From an uncultured Oscillospiraceae bacterium (GTDB lineage: Bacteria > Bacillota > Clostridia > Oscillospirales > Oscillospiraceae): a stretch of DNA of 38,263 nt. This document shows positions 4,005 through 21,553 of this stretch, piece after piece; position 1 is the stretch's first letter; each line of letters starts with the position of its first letter. The position numbers and the translations under genes are program-made. The stretch is from assembly GCA_944387015.1 (NCBI GenBank), contig CALXDH010000024.1, positions 1 through 38,263 of the forward strand. The letters are read 5' to 3'. Below the pieces are notes generated by a model. That model saw only the letters and a list, made by a program, of their open reading frames with translations, was not told the DNA's origin and made no database searches.

Positions 4005-4958
4005 TCAGCTCTTGCGAGCCTTGACTTCTTCGATCATCAGCGGCAGGATCTCATTCACATTGCCGACAATGCCCACGTCCGCCACGTCAAAGATGGGAGC
4101 GTCCTCATCCTTGTTGATGGCCACGATGTACCCGGAGCCGCTCATTCCGGAGACATGCTGCATGGCACCGGAAATGCCGCAGGCGATGTACAGCTTGGGC
4201 GCCACGATCTTGCCGGACTGGCCCACCTGATGGTTACGGGGCACCCAGCCCTCCTCGATGGCAGGACGGCTTGCACCGACCACACCGCCCAGCAGATCCG
4301 CCAGTTCCTTCACCATGGCGAAGTTCTCGGCGCTGCCCATGCCGCGGCCGCCGGCCACGATGACCTCGGCGTCCTCCAGATTCACCATCTCCGCCAGTTC
4401 CTTCACGGTATCCCGGATCACCGCGCGGACTTCAGGAATCGCCACGGTCTCCTCCTGGACAGACGCGGTGCGTCCCTCTTCCCGCTCCGGCTTGCCGAAG
4501 CTGCCGGAACGGACCGTCACCACAGCTGTGCCTTCCACTGCCACGGTCTCCAGCAGAGAGCCGCCGTACACAGAGCGGACCCAGCCCTGTTCAGAGAGGC
4601 CATTGGCGTCGGTAACACAGCCGGCGCCCAGCCGGGCCGCTACCCGTGCCGCCAGTTCCTTGCCGTCCCGGGTGGAACCCATCAGCAGGCAGTCCGCCTC
4701 ATAGCGCTGGCACAGCTCCGTCAGAGCTGCGGCGTAGCACTCGGCCTGATAGCCGCCCACCTGGGCGCTCAGGATCTCTGCGGCGCCGTAGGCGCCCACC
4801 TCTGCCGCGGCGTCGGCGCTGTCCAGCAGCACTGCCGCCACAGGCTTGCCGCCCTGCTGCGCCGCCAGGCGCTGTGCGGCATTGAGCGCCTCCAGGCCCG
4901 CCTTTACCGGCTGGCCGTCAGCGCACTCCATGTATACCAAAATGCCATGATTCTGCAT
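4005..4958 (-). CDS. etfA: Electron transfer flavoprotein alpha subunit
   Basis: 317 residues. The ATG at 4958 follows GGGAGG at 8 bases; a TTG two codons earlier is not needed. The C-terminal half carries the FAD domain with [11 protein letters not shown] and the ETF-alpha signature ending [17 protein letters not shown] and then IVAIN. There is no N-terminal ferredoxin extension, unlike some clostridial EtfA proteins. With EtfB (14 bases upstream) it forms a soluble FAD heterodimer that moves electrons between flavoprotein dehydrogenases. Its partners here are very likely the lactate-type dehydrogenase and the acyl-CoA dehydrogenase of the same operon. Whether this Etf bifurcates electrons with NAD and ferredoxin cannot be judged by eye. 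Confidence 0.93.
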
Positions 4959-4972
4959 CTTCAAATCCTCCC

Positions 4973-5758
4973 TCAGATCAGCTTCTGACCGGCCAGCATC
5001 TCCATGGCCCGGCGCACGGACTCAGCGGCTTCCTTCTCCTGGATCTTCACGCCGCTTTGCCGCTGGGGAGGCGCAGCGAGCACCACACGCTTGGCAGGCG
5101 CTGCAGCCACACGGGCTTCCTCCGCGCCGGCATCTGCCGCGGACAGCGTGCCGATGGGCATCTTCCGGGCCGCCATCTTGCTCTTGATGGAGGGATACCG
5201 GGGCTCATAGGCAGGCTTGGTCACCGTTACCACGCAGGGGCAGGGCGCTTCCACCACACGGTAGCCCTCCTCCGTCTCCTGCTTGGCGGAGATGCCGCCG
5301 TCCTTGGGCTCCAGCTCCAGAACGTTGGTGATCACAGGCAGACCCAGCTGCTCTGCCAGCTGCACGCCCGCCTGGCCGTCGGCGGTATCGGTGGACTCGC
5401 AGCCGCAGAAGATCACATCAAAGGGACCCTCTGCCAGCTTGCCGGCAGCCTTGCCCAGCAGGTAGCTCTTGCCCAGGGCGGAGACTGCAGCAGGCTCCGT
5501 CACCACGTAGGCGTGCTCCGCACCCACGGACAGGCAGCTGCGCAGAGACGGCGTCAGGGCGGCCTCGTCGCCGATGGTGACCACCGTCACGCTGCCGCCG
5601 TTGGCCTCCTTGAATCGGGTAGCCATCTCCAGGGCATAGGTGTCGAAGGCGTTGACCACCGGCGTGATGTCCTTGAGCTGGGGACCGCCGGTGGCCGGGT
5701 CCAGCGTCACGGTGACGGAATCATCCGGCACCTGCTTGATGCAAACCAAAAGTTCCAT
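4973..5758 (-). CDS. etfB: Electron transfer flavoprotein beta subunit
   Basis: 261 residues. The start at 5758 follows AAGGAG at 7 bases. The N-terminus MELLVCIKQVPDD, the NAFDTYALEMA stretch and the PAYEPRYPSIKSKMAA stretch are those of EtfB. The usual nucleotide-site stretch (family form CG-x-Q-A-x-DGDTAQV) reads CGCESTDTADGQAGVQLAEQLG here, an unusual variant that may matter for AMP, FAD or NAD binding. The gene is third in the operon, after a 160-base spacer with three hairpins and before etfA. It acts in the cytosol as the partner of EtfA. Confidence 0.93.
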   Translation of the reverse strand: MELLVCIKQVPDDSVTVTLDPATGGPQLKDITPVVNAFDTYALEMATRFKEANGGSVTVVTIGDEAALTPSLRSCLSVGAEHAYVVTEPAAVSALGKSYLLGKAAGKLAEGPFDVIFCGCESTDTADGQAGVQLAEQLGLPVITNVLELEPKDGGISAKQETEEGYRVVEAPCPCVVTVTKPAYEPRYPSIKSKMAARKMPIGTLSAADAGAEEARVAAAPAKRVVLAAPPQRQSGVKIQEKEAAESVRRAMEMLAGQKLI

Positions 5759-5791
5759 GTTGCTTTACTCCTTATTGTTAGATTCCGCTCA

Positions 5792-5902
5792 GGATCCGGA
5801 GCCGACGCGCCGGATCCCTGTTCCGAAAAGCCGGCTGTCCCGGAACACCGGGCAGCCGCACCGAAGGGACGGCCCCGGCGCCCGGCAGACCGCCGGGCGC
5901 CG
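5792..5902 (-). other. Three consecutive hairpins in the acd-etfB spacer
   Basis: The 160-base gap between the acyl-CoA dehydrogenase and etfB contains three inverted repeats: GGATCCGG / CCGGATCC (5792-5799 and 5810-5817), TGTTCCG / CGGAACA (5819-5825 and 5841-5847), and CGGCGCCCGGC / GCCGGGCGCCG (5876-5886 and 5892-5902). None is followed by a T run on the minus strand. The gap is much longer than others in the operon except by this structure. It may be an RNA processing or stability element that separates the expression of the dehydrogenases and the Etf. Confidence 0.6.
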
Positions 5903-5918
5903 CTGGCCGATGCAGTTC

Positions 5919-7058
5919 TCAGAACTTGCCGATGACGCTCTTGCCGATGACCATCCGCTGGATCTGGTTGGTACCCTCGTAGATCTGGAAGATCTTGGCG
6001 TCCCGGAGGAGCTTTTCCACCGGGTACTCACGGCTGTAACCGTAACCGCCCAGGATCTGGATGGCATCCAGCGCGTTCTGCACGGCGATGTCGCCGGCAT
6101 AGCACTTGGCGATGGCGGACTCACGGCTGTAAGGCAGACCGGCGTCCATCAGCTTCAGGGCGTGGGCCACCATCTGACGGGCGGTCTCCACCCGGATCTC
6201 CATGTCGGCGATCATGAACTGGAGGCCCTGGTTCTTCAGAATGGGCTTGCCAAAGGTGATGCGCTGCTTGCCGTAGGCAACCGCCTCATCAATGGCCCGC
6301 TGGGCAATACCCACAGCGCCGCAGCCCACCCAGGTACGGGACATGTCCAGGGTCTTCATGGCGATCTTGTAGCCCTCGCCCTCGGCACCCATCAGAGCAG
6401 AGGCAGGAATGCGGCAGTCCTCAAACACCACGTCGCAGGTGTTGGAGGTGCGAATGCCCATCTTGTTCTCGTGGTTGCCCGTGGACAGGCCCGGCGTGCC
6501 GGCCTCCACCAGGAAGGCGGACATGCCCTTGACGCCCTGAGACTTATCGGTCATAGCGGTGACCACATAGAAGGAGGCCACACCGCCATTGGTGATGAAG
6601 CACTTGCGGCCGTTGAGGACGTACTCGTCACCCTCCCGGACCGCAGTGGTCTTGGAGTTGCCGGCATCGGAACCGGCCATGGGCTCGGTCAGGCAGAAGG
6701 CGCCGTGGTTGCCTTCCATCAGCAGATCGCAGCAGTGCTGCTTCTGCTCCTCGTTGCCGCCGATGAGGACGGCCTTGAGGGCCAGGTTGCTGGCGGTGAT
6801 GGTGGTGACAAAACCAGCGTCCGCCTTGGCGAACTCCTCCATCAGCGCGGCCACGGTGATGCGCTCCAGGCCCAGGCCGCCGTACTCCTCGGGGACCTCC
6901 AGGCCGTTGTAGCCCAGCTCCGCCGCCTTCTTGTAGATCTCCGCCGGCCATTCGCCGGAGACGTCATACTCCTTGCACTGTTCCTTGATCTCTTTTTCGC
7001 AGAACTCCCGCACGCTGTCCAGCAGGTCCTGGTCCTCGGGATTGATCAAATAAGCCAT
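5919..7058 (-). CDS. Acyl-CoA dehydrogenase (short-chain/butyryl type)
   Basis: 379 residues, the usual length. Shows the FAD and substrate motifs of the family: CLTEPMAGSD, NGRKCFITNGG, QRITFGKPI, the C-terminal LGGYGYSREYPVEKLLRDAK, and IYEGTNQIQ with the expected catalytic base Glu361. The short- or medium-chain type fits butyryl-CoA dehydrogenase, which reduces crotonyl-CoA with electrons from Etf. It is second in the operon, between the 2-hydroxyacid dehydrogenase and etfBA. This suggests electrons from lactate oxidation and from or to acyl-CoA pass through one Etf. The ribosome binding site is GGCGG at 8 bases, weaker than its neighbours. Substrate chain length is inferred. Confidence 0.92.
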   Translation of the reverse strand: MAYLINPEDQDLLDSVREFCEKEIKEQCKEYDVSGEWPAEIYKKAAELGYNGLEVPEEYGGLGLERITVAALMEEFAKADAGFVTTITASNLALKAVLIGGNEEQKQHCCDLLMEGNHGAFCLTEPMAGSDAGNSKTTAVREGDEYVLNGRKCFITNGGVASFYVVTAMTDKSQGVKGMSAFLVEAGTPGLSTGNHENKMGIRTSNTCDVVFEDCRIPASALMGAEGEGYKIAMKTLDMSRTWVGCGAVGIAQRAIDEAVAYGKQRITFGKPILKNQGLQFMIADMEIRVETARQMVAHALKLMDAGLPYSRESAIAKCYAGDIAVQNALDAIQILGGYGYSREYPVEKLLRDAKIFQIYEGTNQIQRMVIGKSVIGKF

Positions 7059-16126: not shown

Positions 16127-16155
16127 TTGCCTTTTATGCAGTTTTCATCTAAAAT
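16127..16155 (+). promoter_or_regulatory. Sigma-A promoter of the activator / double-cubane operon
   Basis: TTGCCT (16127-16132), exactly 17 bases, TAAAAT (16150-16155). Transcription would begin near 16162, about 270 bases before the activator ATG, so the remnant gene lies in the leader of this operon. Confidence 0.6.
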
Positions 16156-16164
16156 ACGGAGTAA

Positions 16165-16437
16165 ATACCCACACGATTTTGCACACTTCTGTTTACTGGA
16201 GACCTCCGGCAACTGTGTTGTGCCCATACACAACCGCTGAGGCAGCCGGTGGACGAGGCCATTGAGATGGTTCTCCAGTCCTGCCACACCTACGATGTGG
16301 AGTCCTCCTTCATCCGGCGGTTTGCGACCCGGGAGAAGGAGCTCCCCTACCTGAACACTGAGACCGACTATTCCCAGACGGACACAGGGCAGGTCAACAC
16401 CCGTCTGGTTGCCTTTTGGGAGACGATCGACAAATGA
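16165..16437 (+). pseudogene. C-terminal remnant of a 2-hydroxyacyl-CoA dehydratase subunit
   Basis: An open frame with no stop from 16165 to the TGA at 16435-16437. From codon 16249 on it reads as the last ~60 residues of the HgdB/FldC dehydratase family: LQSCHTYDVESSF, then PYLNTETDYSQTDTGQ and TRLVAFWE. The full-length homologue at 17383-18657 ends in the same way (LETDYADTDAEQLRTRI). No good start or ribosome binding site lies before it, and about 350 residues of the usual protein are missing. The stop overlaps the activator start in ATGA, the tight coupling expected of an intact dehydratase gene. I read it as the leftover of a deleted gene; a short translated leader peptide is the alternative. 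Confidence 0.7.
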
Positions 16438-17201
16438 ACTACTTTACGGGAATCGACATCGGCTCCACCGCCTCCAAGGTGGTGGTGCTCAGCGAGACAG
16501 AGATCGAAGATCGCTTCGTCCTGCCTACCGGCTGGAGCAGCCGGGAGACATCCAGCGACATCGCCCGACGGCTGGCGGAAGGCGGCCATCCGGTGGGTGA
16601 GGGAATGACCGTGGTGTCCACCGGTTACGGCCGGGCGGCGGTGGACTACGCAGACAAGACCGTTACAGAAATCACCTGCCATGGCCGCGGCGGCTGGTAT
16701 CTGCTGGGCCGGGACTGCACCATCATCGACATCGGCGGCCAAGACACCAAGGTCATCACCGTGGAACACGGGATGCCCACCAGCTTTCTCATGAACGACA
16801 AGTGCTCGGCAGGCACTGGAAAATTTCTGGAGATCATGGCAAACCGCCTGGGAGTGGATCTGTCGGAGCTGTTCACACTTGCAGAATCCGGCACGCCCCT
16901 TGCCATCAGCTCCATGTGCACCGTCTTTGCCGAAAGTGAGGTAATCAGTCACATCGGCGCCGGCGAGCGCCGGGAGGACATCGCCGCGGGTGTGGTGGAC
17001 TCGGTGGTGTGCAAGGTAGCGGGTCTGTGCGCCCGGCACACCATGACAGGAGATGTACTGCTTACCGGCGGACTGTGCGAGAGCACCTACCTGGTAAAGC
17101 AGCTCTCGCAGAAACTGAAACGCCCCGTCCTCACCGACCCCATGGGCCGGTACGCCGGCGCTCTGGGCGCGGCGCTGATCGCCCGGGGCAAGGCCAGATA
17201 A
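16434..17201 (+). CDS. ATP-dependent 2-hydroxyacyl-CoA dehydratase activator (HgdC/YjiL type)
   Basis: 255 residues, the usual size. It has an ASKHA (actin-like ATPase) fold: GIDIGSTASKVVVL at residues 6-19, DIGGQDTKV at 99-107, and a C-terminal GGLCES. Cys124 (DKCSAGTGKF) and Cys162 (SSMCTVFAESEV) match the two cysteines by which the homodimer holds one [4Fe-4S] cluster. Such proteins use ATP to push a low-potential electron into a partner iron-sulfur protein. The ATG overlaps the stop of the upstream remnant (ATGA). The intact partner now is the double-cubane-type protein 180 bases downstream. The 181-base gap holds no further gene. Confidence 0.93.
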   Translation: MNYFTGIDIGSTASKVVVLSETEIEDRFVLPTGWSSRETSSDIARRLAEGGHPVGEGMTVVSTGYGRAAVDYADKTVTEITCHGRGGWYLLGRDCTIIDIGGQDTKVITVEHGMPTSFLMNDKCSAGTGKFLEIMANRLGVDLSELFTLAESGTPLAISSMCTVFAESEVISHIGAGERREDIAAGVVDSVVCKVAGLCARHTMTGDVLLTGGLCESTYLVKQLSQKLKRPVLTDPMGRYAGALGAALIARGKAR

Positions 17202-17382
17202 TCCGCCGCACTTGCAGACGGCAGCGCAAAGGCTTCAGCATCCCCCTGAAAAATCCGGTCTCGGGGAAACGCCCGGTTTGCCTTCCCCCGCAGCACCCGC
17301 AGACAGCGGGAACAAGCCGCAGGCAGATCCGGCCATCCCCGTCGGGCCGTGAGAACATCTACAAAAAATGGAGGAACGCGGT

Positions 17383-18657
17383 ATGTCAGATTATGTACAG
17401 ATGTGGAAAGACCTGGGAATGGATCTGGAGAACCATGACCTGCTTTGTCAGGTGCTCCCCACCGCCGTGGGGGACGTCTTCCTCTCCCAGGAGAACCGCC
17501 CCAAGGCCATGGATTTCTGGGATCTGGTGATCTCGGAGGTCCACGGCATCCGTCCGGCGGAGTTGATCGAGGCCCAGAAGCAGGGCCGCAAGGTCTTCGG
17601 CACCTTCTGCGTCTACGTGCCGGACGAGGTGGTGGTAGCTGCCGACGGCATCGTCACCGGCCTTTGCGGCGGCTCCCAGTTCTGGGTGCCTGACGGCGAG
17701 GCCGTGCTGCCCAAGAGCACCTGTCCTCTGGTAAAGGCCTCAGTGGGCGCCCGGCTGGGCCGGACCTGCCCCTTCTTCCGCATCGCCGACCTGTATGTGG
17801 GCGAGACCACCTGCGACGGCAAGAAAAAGGCCTATGAGATCCTTGGAGAGGACGTGCCCATGTACATCATGGACGTGCCCCAGATGAAGCGGGAAAAGGA
17901 CATTTTGAAGTGGAAGGACGAGATCGCGGACTTTGCCGAAAAGGTGGAGGAATTTACCGGCAACCCCATTACCCCGGAAAAGCTGGGAGAGGCCATCCAC
18001 ATCATCAACGAAAAGCGCAAGGCCCTGGCCCGGATTTACGAGTGCCGCAAGTCCACCTGTCTGCCCATCTCCGGCCGGGACGCCCTGCTGGTGATGCAGA
18101 TCGCCTTCTTTGACGATCCGGTGCGGTGCGCCCAGATGTGCAACCGCCTGGCCGACGAGCTGGAACAGCGCATTCGGGACGGGGTCAGCGTGGTCCCCGC
18201 CGGTACCAAACGCATCCTGGTCACCGGCACTCCCATGGCCGTGCCCAACTGGAAACTCCACAACATCATCGAAACCAGCGGCGCTGCCGTGGTGTGCGAG
18301 GAGATGTGCACGGGCACCCGGTACTTTGAGAATCTGGTAGACGAGACCAAGACCACGCTGGACGAGCAGTTCATGGCCCTGTCCCAGCGATACATGAAAA
18401 CCAACTGCGCCTGCTTTACCCCCAACACCGGCCGTATCGACGACATCCTGCGCTTGGTCAAGGAGTACCAAGTGGACGGCGTCATCGACTGCAACCTGAA
18501 ATTCTGCTGCCTGTACGACACGGAGAAGTATGCCGTCAGCCGGGCGCTGAAGGAGGCCAGTGTGCCGGTGCTCAGCCTGGAGACCGACTACGCCGACACC
18601 GACGCCGAGCAGCTGCGCACCCGCATCGGAGCCTTTGTGGAGCTGCTCAATGGCTGA
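17383..18657 (+). CDS. 2-hydroxyacyl-CoA dehydratase homologue, double-cubane cluster protein type (YjiM-like)
   Basis: 424 residues. The ATG at 17383 follows GGAGG at 8 bases. The whole length matches the dehydratase-D family, with RKVFGTFCVYVPDEVV, STCPLVKASVG, NWKLHNIIETSGAAVVCEEMC, NCACFTPNT, NLKFCCLYDTEKYAV and LETDYADTD. It has 17 Cys, including C76, C114, C129, C305, C309, C342, C344, C375 and C376. A single subunit without an alpha partner next to an activator is the layout of double-cubane cluster proteins, in which a homodimer holds [8Fe-9S] clusters. These are reduced by the activator with ATP and reduce small molecules in vitro. A true 2-hydroxyacyl-CoA dehydratase would need a second subunit. 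The natural substrate is unknown. The end overlaps the next gene by 8 bases. Confidence 0.85.
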   Translation: MSDYVQMWKDLGMDLENHDLLCQVLPTAVGDVFLSQENRPKAMDFWDLVISEVHGIRPAELIEAQKQGRKVFGTFCVYVPDEVVVAADGIVTGLCGGSQFWVPDGEAVLPKSTCPLVKASVGARLGRTCPFFRIADLYVGETTCDGKKKAYEILGEDVPMYIMDVPQMKREKDILKWKDEIADFAEKVEEFTGNPITPEKLGEAIHIINEKRKALARIYECRKSTCLPISGRDALLVMQIAFFDDPVRCAQMCNRLADELEQRIRDGVSVVPAGTKRILVTGTPMAVPNWKLHNIIETSGAAVVCEEMCTGTRYFENLVDETKTTLDEQFMALSQRYMKTNCACFTPNTGRIDDILRLVKEYQVDGVIDCNLKFCCLYDTEKYAVSRALKEASVPVLSLETDYADTDAEQLRTRIGAFVELLNG

Positions 18658-18922
18658 GGAACAGGTCCGCTATTACATCCTCTTTGCCAACTACGAGCAA
18701 GGGCTTGCCCTCCATGACCTGTTGGACCGGGAGAACATCCCTAACCGGATCGCCCCGGCCCCCAGGGCCATCCAGGGGGAGCTCTCCTGCGGGATGTCCC
18801 TGCTGATCCAGCCGGAGGCGCTGGAGACCGTGAAGGACTGCATTCGGCGGCACAACGCCCCCCACCACGCCATCGTGCCTCTGGCGGGTCAGATCAAGCC
18901 CCGCCGGGACCGGTACTGCTGA
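18650..18922 (+). CDS. DUF3343 small protein (putative Se/S carrier-like)
   Basis: 90 residues. The ATG at 18650 lies inside the end of the dehydratase-like gene (8-base overlap), so the two are translationally coupled. The fold pattern YYILFANYEQGLALHDLLDR, quoted in part, then GELSCGMSLLIQPE, fits the DUF3343 family, known as a putative Se/S carrier-like domain. Cys47 is the conserved one (SCGMS), Cys64 lies in VKDC, and the protein ends in Cys90 (RDRYC). It may deliver sulfur or selenium, or bind the double-cubane protein during cluster assembly. This is an inference from the tight gene link. Confidence 0.85.
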   Translation: MAEEQVRYYILFANYEQGLALHDLLDRENIPNRIAPAPRAIQGELSCGMSLLIQPEALETVKDCIRRHNAPHHAIVPLAGQIKPRRDRYC

Positions 18923-19068: not shown

Positions 19069-20124
19069 TTACGCATCATTTTGCGCGGCACTTAGCATAG
19101 TATCCAGCAAAATTCCATATCCTTTGGTTGGATCATTCAGCAGCACATGGGTCACTGCGCCAACAAATTTGCCATCCTGCAGGATCGGGCTGCCGCTCAT
19201 GCCCTGGACAATGCCGCCGGTGGTATCGATCAGCTCGGGATCCGTTACGGAGATGAGCAGCTCCCGACCATCGAAAGCACCTGCGCTGACCTTCAAAATT
19301 TCAATGTCATACTCCCGGACGGCGTCCCCATCCACATTGGAGCGGATGGTTGCCGCACCGGTGTGGACCTCATCCGGGTCCGCTACAGGCAGCGCCTGTC
19401 CCATCTGTTCCGTCAGTTCACAGGGGGAGAGGGTACCGAAAATACCGCTGTTGGTATTGGCGTACAGGTCACCCAGATCGCCGGTAAGGTCAAAATCTCC
19501 CCGCAGCTCACCGGCTTCTCCTGCTGTGCCCTTTTTCACCGCCTTCACCGTGGAGGCCAGGATGGAGCCGGAGGAGAAGGGCATCAGCAGCGCCGTGTCG
19601 CTGTCCGTGATGCCGTGGCCCAGCGCGCCGAAGGCACCGCTGTCGGGATCATAATAGGTCATGGTGCCGATGCCGGCCATGGAGTCCCGGATCCAGGCAC
19701 CGATTGCATATTGCCCCTGGTCATTTTGTTCCGGCGAAACGGACAGTGTCATGGTCTCTGCGCCCCGCCGGACCTGGAGGTCCGTGGAGGTCTCACCGGT
19801 ATTTTGCAGCAGGGTCTGGAACTGCTCCGTGGAGGTCACGGAAACGCCGCCGCACTTGACGATGATGTCACCGGTCTGCAGTCCGCTCTCCCTGGCCGGT
19901 GAATCACCCTCGGGGAGTTTCACCACCAGTACGCCCCGGGCAAAGAGTTTGATGCCTACTGTGTGGCCCACCGGCACCAGCATCCGGGCGGAGGTGCCTG
20001 CGGCCGGGCCGTCCGCCGTTACGTCCGCAGCTCTGGCGGGAGCTGCTGCGCACAGCAGCAGTGCCAGCAGGCACGCCGCGCCGCCCCGCAGCCATTTTTT
20101 TGCTGTTTGCAAGGATTCATGCAT
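19069..20124 (-). CDS. spoIVB: SpoIVB serine peptidase (sporulation checkpoint)
   Basis: 351 residues. The ATG at 20124 follows AAGGGG at 7 bases. Residues about 13-33 form an N-terminal membrane anchor or signal, about 62-130 a PDZ domain (LQTGDIIVKCGG), and about 135-350 the S55 peptidase domain. Likely catalytic residues are His170 (ALGHGITD), Asp295 (SVTDPEL) and Ser310 (VQGMSGSPI). SpoIVB is made in the forespore, secreted into the intermembrane space, and cuts SpoIVFA to let pro-sigma-K be processed. In most spore formers it lies directly upstream of spo0A; here an inserted block separates them. It follows ftsZ on the same strand. Confidence 0.95.
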   Translation of the reverse strand: MHESLQTAKKWLRGGAACLLALLLCAAAPARAADVTADGPAAGTSARMLVPVGHTVGIKLFARGVLVVKLPEGDSPARESGLQTGDIIVKCGGVSVTSTEQFQTLLQNTGETSTDLQVRRGAETMTLSVSPEQNDQGQYAIGAWIRDSMAGIGTMTYYDPDSGAFGALGHGITDSDTALLMPFSSGSILASTVKAVKKGTAGEAGELRGDFDLTGDLGDLYANTNSGIFGTLSPCELTEQMGQALPVADPDEVHTGAATIRSNVDGDAVREYDIEILKVSAGAFDGRELLISVTDPELIDTTGGIVQGMSGSPILQDGKFVGAVTHVLLNDPTKGYGILLDTMLSAAQNDA

Positions 20125-20180
20125 TGAATCACCCCTTTCCAAAACGCATCCGGCAAACGCACTGGTCTGCCGGCCCGCTT

Positions 20181-20194
20181 ATCTTGGGCAAGAT
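20181..20194. repeat. Palindrome upstream of spoIVB
   Basis: ATCTTGGGCAAGAT is a perfect palindrome with 6-bp arms, 57 bases before the spoIVB ATG. It could be an operator or a small hairpin in the leader. No regulator is suggested. Confidence 0.3.
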
Positions 20195-20267
20195 CAGACG
20201 CACTCACCCCCAGCAAAAACCGCCAGCGCCGCCATGGCAGCGTTTGCCTGTCGGCTGAACGCAGGCA

Positions 20268-20305
20268 TAAAAAAAGACCCCGCAGGCAAAAACCTGCGGA
20301 GTCTT
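20268..20305 (-). terminator. Terminator of ftsZ
   Basis: AGACCCCGCAGG (20275-20286) pairs with CCTGCGGAGTCT (20293-20304), followed by seven T on the minus strand. It separates ftsZ from spoIVB. Confidence 0.9.
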
Positions 20306-20319
20306 CCAGCACTTGACAA

Positions 20320-21468
20320 TCAGTCACGCTTATTGAAAATTTTGAAAATGTCCTCGAAGGGATCATCCTCCGGCTCGGGCTCAGGACCTACCGGCTCCGG
20401 AGCCTTGACAGCGGAATGCTCCTGAGGTTCGGCGGCTGTGGCACCAGATGCGGCGGTCTGGGCCGGCGCCGCACCGGTCTGGCTGCCAGAGACCTTAGGC
20501 AGCTCCGCAGGGGCCTTGTCGAAGCCCGTAGCGATGACGGTGACCCGGATCTCGTCGTCCAGCGTCTCGTCGAAGGTGGCGCCGAAGATGGTAAGGGCAT
20601 CGGGATGGACGGCCTCCTGCACCAGAGACGCCGCCTGCTCCACTTCCTCCAGGCCGATGTCCATAGAACCGGTGATGTTGATCAGCACGCCCTTGGCGCC
20701 GGCAATGGACGTCTCCAGCAGGGGGCTGGAAATAGCCATGCGGGCAGCCTCCTCGGCTTTGCCCTTTCCAGCGGCCCGGCCCACGCCCATGTGGGCCATG
20801 CCGGCGTTTTTCATGACGGCGGTGACATCCGCGAAGTCCAGGTTGATAAAGCCGGTGTCCCGGATCAGATCGGAGATGGACTGCACTGCCTGGCGCAGCA
20901 CATCGTCGGCGATCTCAAATGCGTTGGCAAACGTGATCTTCTGATCGGTGGCGTGCTTGAGCCGGTCATTGGGGATAATGACCAGGGAGTCCACCCGGTC
21001 CTTCAGCTCGGCAATGCCGGACTCGGCAGCCCGCATACGGCGGGGGCCTTCAAAGCCGAAGGGCTTGGTGACCACGGCCACGGTGAGGATGTCCATTTCC
21101 TTGGCGATCTCCGCCACGATGGGAGCACCGCCGGTGCCGGTGCCGCCGCCCATGCCGGCGGTGATGAACACCATGTCGGTATCCTCCAGGGCCTTGGCGA
21201 TCTGCTGGCGGCTCTCCTCGGCGGACTTGCGTCCCACCTCGGGATCGGAGCCTGCGCCCTGTCCGTGGGTCAGCTTCTCGCCGATCTGGATCTTATAGGT
21301 GGCGCTGGATACGTTCAGCGCCTGTTTATCGGTATTCACCGCCACGAACTCTACGCCCTTGGTCCCGGAGCGAACCATGCGGTTGACCACGTTGTTGCCG
21401 CCGCCGCCTACGCCGATGACCTTAATATTGACAACGGTATCGGGACCGGTCTCCAATCCAAATGCCAT
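20320..21468 (-). CDS. ftsZ: Cell division GTPase FtsZ
   Basis: 382 residues. The ATG at 21468 follows AGGAGG at 6 bases. The tubulin-like GTPase domain has [16 protein letters not shown] near residue 16, the signature loop [13 protein letters not shown] and the T7-type loop [13 protein letters not shown]. After about residue 315 there is an Ala/Pro/Glu-rich linker, ending in [14 protein letters not shown], the C-terminal peptide that would bind FtsA, SepF or EzrA-type anchors. FtsZ forms the division ring. It has its own promoter (21554-21582). No ftsA lies upstream; ftsQ is the preceding gene, so another anchor, likely SepF elsewhere, must serve. Confidence 0.97.
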
Positions 21469-21498
21469 GATGTGCCTCCTGCTATCAGTTGTGTAAAA

Positions 21499-21515
21499 GG
21501 GGAACACTGCTCCCC
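21499..21515 (-). other. Small hairpin in the ftsZ leader
   Basis: GGGGA and TCCCC arms (5 bp) around a 7-base centre, in the predicted 5' untranslated region about 20 bases before the ribosome binding site. It may influence ftsZ mRNA stability. Confidence 0.35.
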
Positions 21516-21553
21516 GGAAACCCACGATATTTTGTATGATACAGATTTAGTTT

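Follow-up and report, generated by a model that had tools for sequence, protein, structure and literature searches.

Three adjoining genes in a clostridial contig

The window analyzed here, meaning the whole stretch of DNA under study, spans 38,263 nucleotides (positions 1 to 38,263 of contig CALXDH010000024.1, assembly GCA_944387015.1) and comes from an uncultured Oscillospiraceae bacterium. Among its genes are three that adjoin on the forward strand and encode an activator ATPase, a double-cubane cluster protein (DCCP) and a small protein of the DUF3343 family (Table 1). An earlier note, made from this DNA by itself, had given the positions of these genes, the cluster cysteines C124 and C162 of the activator, the 17 cysteines of a dehydratase-like protein, the 8 bases that its reading frame shares with that of DUF3343, and the terminal cysteine of the latter; all of these were borne out. 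It had not included the remnant of a further DCCP gene that lies upstream.

Table 1. Features of the DCCP-DUF3343 locus, in positions of the window
Feature	Position	Strand	Remarks
Sigma-70-like promoter candidate	16127..16155	+	TTGCCT, 17 nt, TAAAAT; consensus scan
DCCP remnant, short-form (YjiM-type)	16246..16437	+	last ~60 codons; NF040772 positions 314-372
Activator ATPase	16434..17201	+	255 aa; TIGR00241 E 1e-73, PF01869 E 4e-54
DCCP, long form	17383..18657	+	424 aa, 17 Cys; NF040772, 6ENO/7YYL
DUF3343 protein (PF11823, putative Se/S carrier)	18650..18922	+	90 aa, last residue Cys

The three genes share one strand, the activator and DCCP genes are separated by 181 bp (an alternative possible start of the DCCP open reading frame [ORF] is at 17368), and a promoter-like site lies 5' of the activator, so that the set is likely, though not proven, to be a single operon. 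The promoter candidate stands upstream of both the remnant and the activator, within a stretch that is well conserved in a near relative (locus L018). Such sites number two in this region compared with 0.7 expected by chance in the same consensus scan, and the match alone is no evidence of function.

The dehydratase-like protein is a DCCP

The activator scored 247.9 bits with TIGR00241 (cut-off, 125.4) and its downstream neighbor 490.6 bits with NF040772 (double_cubane; cut-off, 350), in agreement with the earlier description of an activator and a double-cubane-type protein. Lying directly upstream of the DCCP gene, the activator qualifies as its ATPase partner. The nearest solved structures to the DCCP, matched over its whole length, are PDB entries 6ENO and 7YYL (E about 1e-141), which we take to come from Carboxydothermus hydrogenoformans. 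The window protein is thus like the DCCP and reductase of that organism in family and in being a long form; it differs in that it falls in another long-form clade, one with a dedicated DUF3343 partner. 6ENO is named as a DCCP in PMC11971306, where the [8Fe-9S] ligands of the related protein BzdN are given as Cys36, Cys73, Cys100, Cys263, Cys293 and Cys327. When these were mapped by eye on the alignment from the 6ENO/7YYL search, all six aligned with cysteines of the window DCCP (C76, C114, C144, C309, C344 and C375), and the same six are invariant across 14 aligned proteins, window included. The window DCCP is predicted to carry an [8Fe-9S] cluster with ATP-dependent reduction.

Membership in a two-subunit 2-hydroxyacyl-CoA dehydratase, against which the earlier note had wanted the protein checked, was rejected on model scores and on the tree described below: the score with the HadC-type subunit model NF052456 was 118.5 bits (cut-off, 700). 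Searches of the source genome with the window DCCP and NF040772 returned only the window gene and the remnant, so that these two queries turned up no further intact HGD-D gene (PF06050 itself was not searched).

DUF3343 is a conserved neighbor of one DCCP clade

A sample of the home phylum comprised 299 genomes, 92 of them with a DCCP above the cut-off; setting aside the window's own genome, the other 91 yielded 109 DCCP loci. Of these 109, 20 have a DUF3343 gene immediately downstream in the same orientation. We also examined the best 80 of at least 563 confirmed relatives of the window locus (71 to 98% identity), with genes called by our own hidden Markov models (HMMs) and with many contigs short. 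DUF3343 is directly 3' of the DCCP gene in 80/80, at a spacing of -14 to +199 bases, and of these loci 64 contain a selenocysteine lyase/cysteine desulfurase (hereafter lyase), 62 an activator, 34 YedF and 15 SelD.

A FastTree phylogeny of 179 rows, from which ORFs of fewer than 300 or more than 600 aa and some others were left out by length, included 22 rows hand-picked from the 80 relatives. The outgroup rooted it poorly, and only clades near the window were used. Of the 46 DCCPs scored as DUF3343-adjacent, 45 group together in a single part of the long-form tree (the exception is L081). The window clade (47 rows; support, 99) has 45 DUF3343-adjacent members, L156 and L157 being the others, a count that is enriched because the relatives' rows were found through the window DCCP. 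6ENO belongs to a different long-form clade, and none of its 25 rows was scored as DUF3343-adjacent. The coupling of DCCP and DUF3343 is conserved beyond chance: as judged by the 80 near relatives and by the clustering in one clade, DUF3343 neighbors are not random, which was the check that the earlier note had proposed. Clostridia-like DCCP/DUF3343 contigs were also seen in metagenome-assembled genomes (MAGs) labeled Dehalococcoidales and Methanocorpusculum (L208 and L213), probably through binning contamination.

Two conserved cysteines in the DUF3343 partner

The window DUF3343 protein scored 58.8 bits with PF11823 (threshold, 25), which together with its adjacency in every near relative upholds the earlier view of it as a real partner. 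It has two cysteine motifs, C47-G48 and a C-terminal R86-x-x-x-C90. Among the DCCP-adjacent DUF3343 proteins of the best 80 relatives, Cys-Gly is present in all 80 and a C-terminal R-[DNG]-x-[YF]-Cys in 78, whereas the other DUF3343 proteins of these loci, called by our own HMM, end in Cys in 0 of 31. The DCCP-adjacent copies of the window clade thus differ from the remaining copies at the same loci by their cysteine tail. P36, P38, C47, G48, R86 and C90 are invariant in an alignment of 40 proteins, which consists of the window protein and 39 of the 80, all chosen with a Cys tail; C47 is also invariant in a broader alignment of 27 DUF3343 proteins.

The AF2 model of the protein (mean pLDDT, 83) has a beta-alpha-beta-beta-alpha-beta fold, with C47 just ahead of the third strand; its tail (residues 81 to 90) is modeled with lower confidence (mean pLDDT, 65). 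Comparison of the model with the PDB returned weak matches, mostly of the PII/CutA type and including PstA (best E, 0.0036; TM about 0.5), and no relative was found in the PDB by sequence. A role as a selenium or sulfur carrier is plausible. Lin et al. (2015; PMC5322559) proposed DUF3343, as a hypothesis, to be a selenium/sulfur trafficking protein, and the window protein resembles theirs in its PF11823 match, its conserved Cys-Gly and its link to YedF and lyase genes.

Several larger proteins include DUF3343-like parts. Locus L144 encodes a natural DUF3343::SelD fusion (4869-6167) in a string with DCCP, DUF3343, an activator, a lyase and YedF. L082, L138 and L160 have a 183-aa protein beside YedE whose N-terminal part is DUF3343-like and is joined to an unknown second domain; these three enter the neighbor counts below as DUF3343. 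Furthermore, DUF3343 matches lie within frames of about 430 to 460 aa, possibly fusions, in eight genomes (G073, G176, G268, G075, G119, G043, G086 and G250).

Selenium genes recur near DCCP loci

Counted by genome over the 109 home-phylum loci, the recurrent neighbors of DCCP are DUF3343 (26), a lyase/desulfurase (18), YedF (17), YedE (11), LysR (10) and SelD (6); NCBIfam assigned their representatives to TIGR01977 (lyase), TIGR03527 (YedF), TIGR04112 (YedE), NF040786 (LysR_Sec_metab) and TIGR00476 (SelD). At least one of DUF3343, YedF, YedE and SelD is present at 41 of the 109 DCCP loci compared with 0 of 20 loci of non-DCCP HGD-D proteins in the same phylum (Fisher P, 0.0004), and 15 of those 20 do have an activator. 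A second sample, which we take to be Actinomycetota from a genome titled Gordonibacter, has 31 DCCP genomes, and selenium-module genes occur at 7 of the 14 DCCP loci examined there. Some strings are long: L166, L172 and L178 run SelD-YedF-DUF3343-activator-lyase-DCCP-DUF3343, and L144 runs DCCP-DUF3343-activator-lyase-[DUF3343::SelD fusion]-YedF. The selenium module (SelD, YedF, TIGR01977/SclA, YedE and LysR_Sec) shares strings with DCCP-DUF3343 in many relatives, and this neighborhood ties the DUF3343-DCCP set to selenium supply.

SelD and DCCP also tend to occur in the same genomes. Within the home phylum, SelD scores above its cut-off in 91 of the 92 DCCP genomes versus 112 of the other 207; among the latter, it is found in 49 of 80 with only non-DCCP homologs and in 63 of 127 without a homolog (P, 0.12). 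Counting by family gives 44/44 with DCCP against 39/74 without, and SelD is never missing from the 20 sampled genomes in which DCCP and DUF3343 are direct neighbors. For Actinomycetota the figures are 29/31 with DCCP, 11/26 with non-DCCP homologs only and 104/166 for the rest; SelD calls there and in the archaeal sample described below rest on inspection by eye of match lists (E <= 1e-60 and 1e-40), which could miss weaker SelD proteins. Across 14 control genomes, DCCP, DUF3343 and SelD each match the same two, those of E. coli and M. jannaschii.

The source genome itself encodes SelD (G000:C7:41943-42863; 406.7 bits) beside YqeB and YqeC, a selenium-cofactor trait. No SelD, YedF or lyase adjoins the window's own set. 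Elsewhere the genome has a YedF-lyase-DUF3343 string and a second DUF3343-lyase pair, which stand without a DCCP beside them. A DCCP of the window type was found in 2 of the 24 congeners searched, some of which are incomplete: G001 (91%) and G023 (98%). The first of these, at locus L017, has a lyase directly upstream of activator-DCCP-DUF3343.

Parts of this picture have precedents. YedF and TIGR01977 were linked to SelD by Haft and Self (2008; PMC2276186), and the words "dehydratase" and "activase" are absent from the available text of that paper. In Table 1 of PMC5322559, an activase is named as a partner of YedE, YedF and DUF3343, while YedF and a LysR-like gene are given subunits of 2-hydroxyglutaryl-CoA dehydratase as partners; within the available text, such words occur only in that table. 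Kountz and Balskus (2023; PMC10418091) describe DCCP as "provisionally linked" to selenium metabolism, and DUF3343 does not appear in the part of their text consulted. A DCCP pair is down-regulated under CO (PMC7306483), the biological function of DCCP was stated to be unknown in 2025 (PMC11971306), and a 2026 review describes the in vivo selenium form for SelD and its donor system as incompletely elucidated (PMC13188914). A general link of DCCP to selenium is thus an already published hint. Of a Cys-tailed DUF3343 partner dedicated to DCCP we found no published account in the literature searched.

A proposed reductive step in selenium supply

In the reading proposed here, to which we give about even weight, the three genes encode the reductive core of a module that supplies selenium or possibly sulfur. 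The activator would spend ATP to drive low-potential electrons into DCCP, a transfer that has reportedly been seen in the Carboxydothermus DCCP system. DUF3343 would be a ferredoxin-like carrier whose C47-G48 picks up selenium or sulfur, probably from the lyase (TIGR01977) or from YedF, and whose C-terminal Cys arm offers it to DCCP, which would reduce the cargo to selenide (or sulfide) usable by SelD. A very low potential is required to reduce Se(0) to HSe-, which would explain the use of ATP-driven electrons. The gene identities, the conserved coupling, the two cysteines and the selenium context are observed; that DUF3343 binds DCCP directly, that its cargo is selenium and that DCCP reduces this cargo are inferred. 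Most likely, DUF3343 hands selenium (or sulfur) to DCCP in this manner for the benefit of SelD and is not the sulfur source of the [8Fe-9S] cluster. A bolder version can be offered only tentatively, namely that DCCP, activator and Cys-tailed DUF3343 form the long-missing delivery and reduction step before SelD, in which an ATP-driven, nitrogenase-like [8Fe-9S] cluster would reduce carrier-bound Se(0) on a swinging Cys arm. DsrC does likewise for sulfur with its own C-terminal swinging arm, and the likeness to DsrC/TusE, small carriers with a C-terminal Cys arm for a metallo-reductase, is only an analogy; no protein of that type is among the PDB matches of DUF3343, the sole comparison made.

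Several observations weigh against a strict selenium role. The Cys tail is not general, since 11 of the 23 DCCP-adjacent rows of the broader DUF3343 alignment end in Cys and E. coli YtiA has no C-terminal Cys. An archaeal sample, presumably Halobacteriota from a genome titled Methanocorpusculum, has DCCP in 7 of 147 genomes and SelD in none of the seven (1/147 overall), and at the six archaeal loci inspected DCCP has neither DUF3343 nor lyase, YedF or YedE beside it. DCCP also occurs without SelD in one home-phylum genome (G205) and two of Actinomycetota (G576 and G617). Because of these genomes, DCCPs cannot all be engaged in selenium chemistry, and a selenium-only reading of the whole family is rejected on the strength of the SelD-lacking archaeal sample. 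In G205, which has no SelD, a lyase and DUF3343 lie near the DCCP, which suggests that sulfur can be a cargo. Within the home phylum, SelD is absent from 16 of 181 DUF3343 genomes (165 have it), and among SelD-positive genomes DUF3343 is present in 79/91 with DCCP versus 86/112 without (P, 0.07), which is no clear excess. A within-family test of DCCP and SelD gave 11 observed against 10.0 expected, from four informative families and with almost no power, and common descent may therefore account for some of the co-occurrence. Classical E. coli selenium screens are said to have given selA to selD and not yjiM, in which case the set cannot be essential there.

Among the archaeal-sample genomes, L265 to L270 are DCCP-activator pairs without SelD. 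The seventh archaeal DCCP genome (G338) is a MAG whose Clostridia-like DCCP contig may be contamination. A SelD match at L267, made by a loose home-made HMM, is probably a related protein; no SelD was found there at E <= 1e-40.

Alternative explanations

The tight adjacency and overlap of the DCCP and DUF3343 genes, as well as the cysteine-desulfurase-family enzyme at 64 of the 80 relatives' loci, would suit a maturation factor by which DUF3343 supplies sulfur (or selenium) to build DCCP's own [8Fe-9S] cluster, as the earlier note had proposed. We regard this as unlikely, because 89 of the 109 DCCP loci do without a directly adjacent DUF3343, none of the 25 rows of the 6ENO clade was scored as having one, NifU/IscU scaffolds stand beside five long-form DCCPs that lack one (L088, L116, L117, L149 and L152), and the remaining recurrent partners are selenium genes. 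Of that proposal, the carriage of sulfur or selenium stays plausible while delivery to the cluster is disfavored. A further reading, in which DUF3343 is no carrier and instead a regulatory or docking subunit of DCCP in the manner of PII/CutA (the earlier note had allowed for a regulatory subunit), finds a footing in the AF2 fold and in the PstA, CutA and PII proteins that head its PDB matches. Those matches are weak, two sites with conserved Cys would be needless in a regulator, and DUF3343 is also fused to SelD and, in the source genome, placed beside YedF and lyase genes away from any DCCP; we consider such a subunit improbable.

DCCP could also reduce some other small substrate, its proximity to selenium genes reflecting shared use by anaerobes or co-regulation with methyl-selenium corrinoid methyltransferase clusters. 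The archaeal DCCP-activator pairs without SelD agree with this, as do the MtaA/UroD-like genes that 12 genomes have in the vicinity of their DCCPs (one representative scanned), a kind of cluster reported in PMC10418091. Methyltransferase-like genes close to some of the DCCPs do recall the type 1 mlp clusters of that paper, but no such methyltransferase adjoins the window's set. Moreover, the non-DCCP homologs show no linkage to selenium genes and no strong association with SelD by the counts given above, and the DUF3343-linked clade often lies within selenium gene strings; on balance, another substrate seems rather unlikely. Finally, a Pfam HGD-D domain with an adjoining activator is what a 2-hydroxyacyl-CoA dehydratase would present, an identity made barely credible by the HadC and DCCP model scores and by the lack, in the searches made, of a second intact HGD-D gene.

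The selenium supply reading, if correct, would give an orphan reductase a testable job. Since DCCP, a two-Cys carrier, a lyase-type enzyme and SelD occur in one string, the function of DCCP and the donor of SelD become testable together.

A counterpart in E. coli K-12

E. coli K-12 yjiM encodes a DCCP (NF040772, 531.4 bits) and yjiL its activator. Downstream of yjiL, with a 4-base overlap (L241, 7669-9851), lies ytiA (b4715), annotated as uncharacterized, whose product is a DUF3343 protein (PF11823, 48.9 bits). As in the window, DCCP, activator and DUF3343 thus make up one gene string; the E. coli string differs in its short-form DCCP, its gene order and the missing terminal Cys of YtiA. It brings the DCCP-selenium question into E. 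coli K-12, a standard laboratory strain.

Remnant of a second DCCP and flanking genes

The remnant upstream of the activator matches the end of the NF040772 model with an E of 4.3e-19, and its stop codon and the activator start share 4 bases. Its best matches are short-form (YjiM-type) DCCPs, at 58 to 60% over 60 aa, and a diverged copy (45 aa, 64%) holds the same place in L018, whose DCCP is 98% identical to that of the window. At L073, a short DCCP that is still intact overlaps the activator likewise, and a long DCCP and then DUF3343 come after it; L098 and L113, also intact two-DCCP versions, have the same order. Because these loci keep an intact gene at that place, the window set looks like a four-gene set that has lost its first gene. 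The earlier term "single subunit" accordingly needs a caveat, as some relatives, and the window with its remnant, have two DCCPs around one activator. Downstream of DUF3343, on the opposite strand, positions 19072-21525 encode a SpoIVB peptidase and FtsZ.

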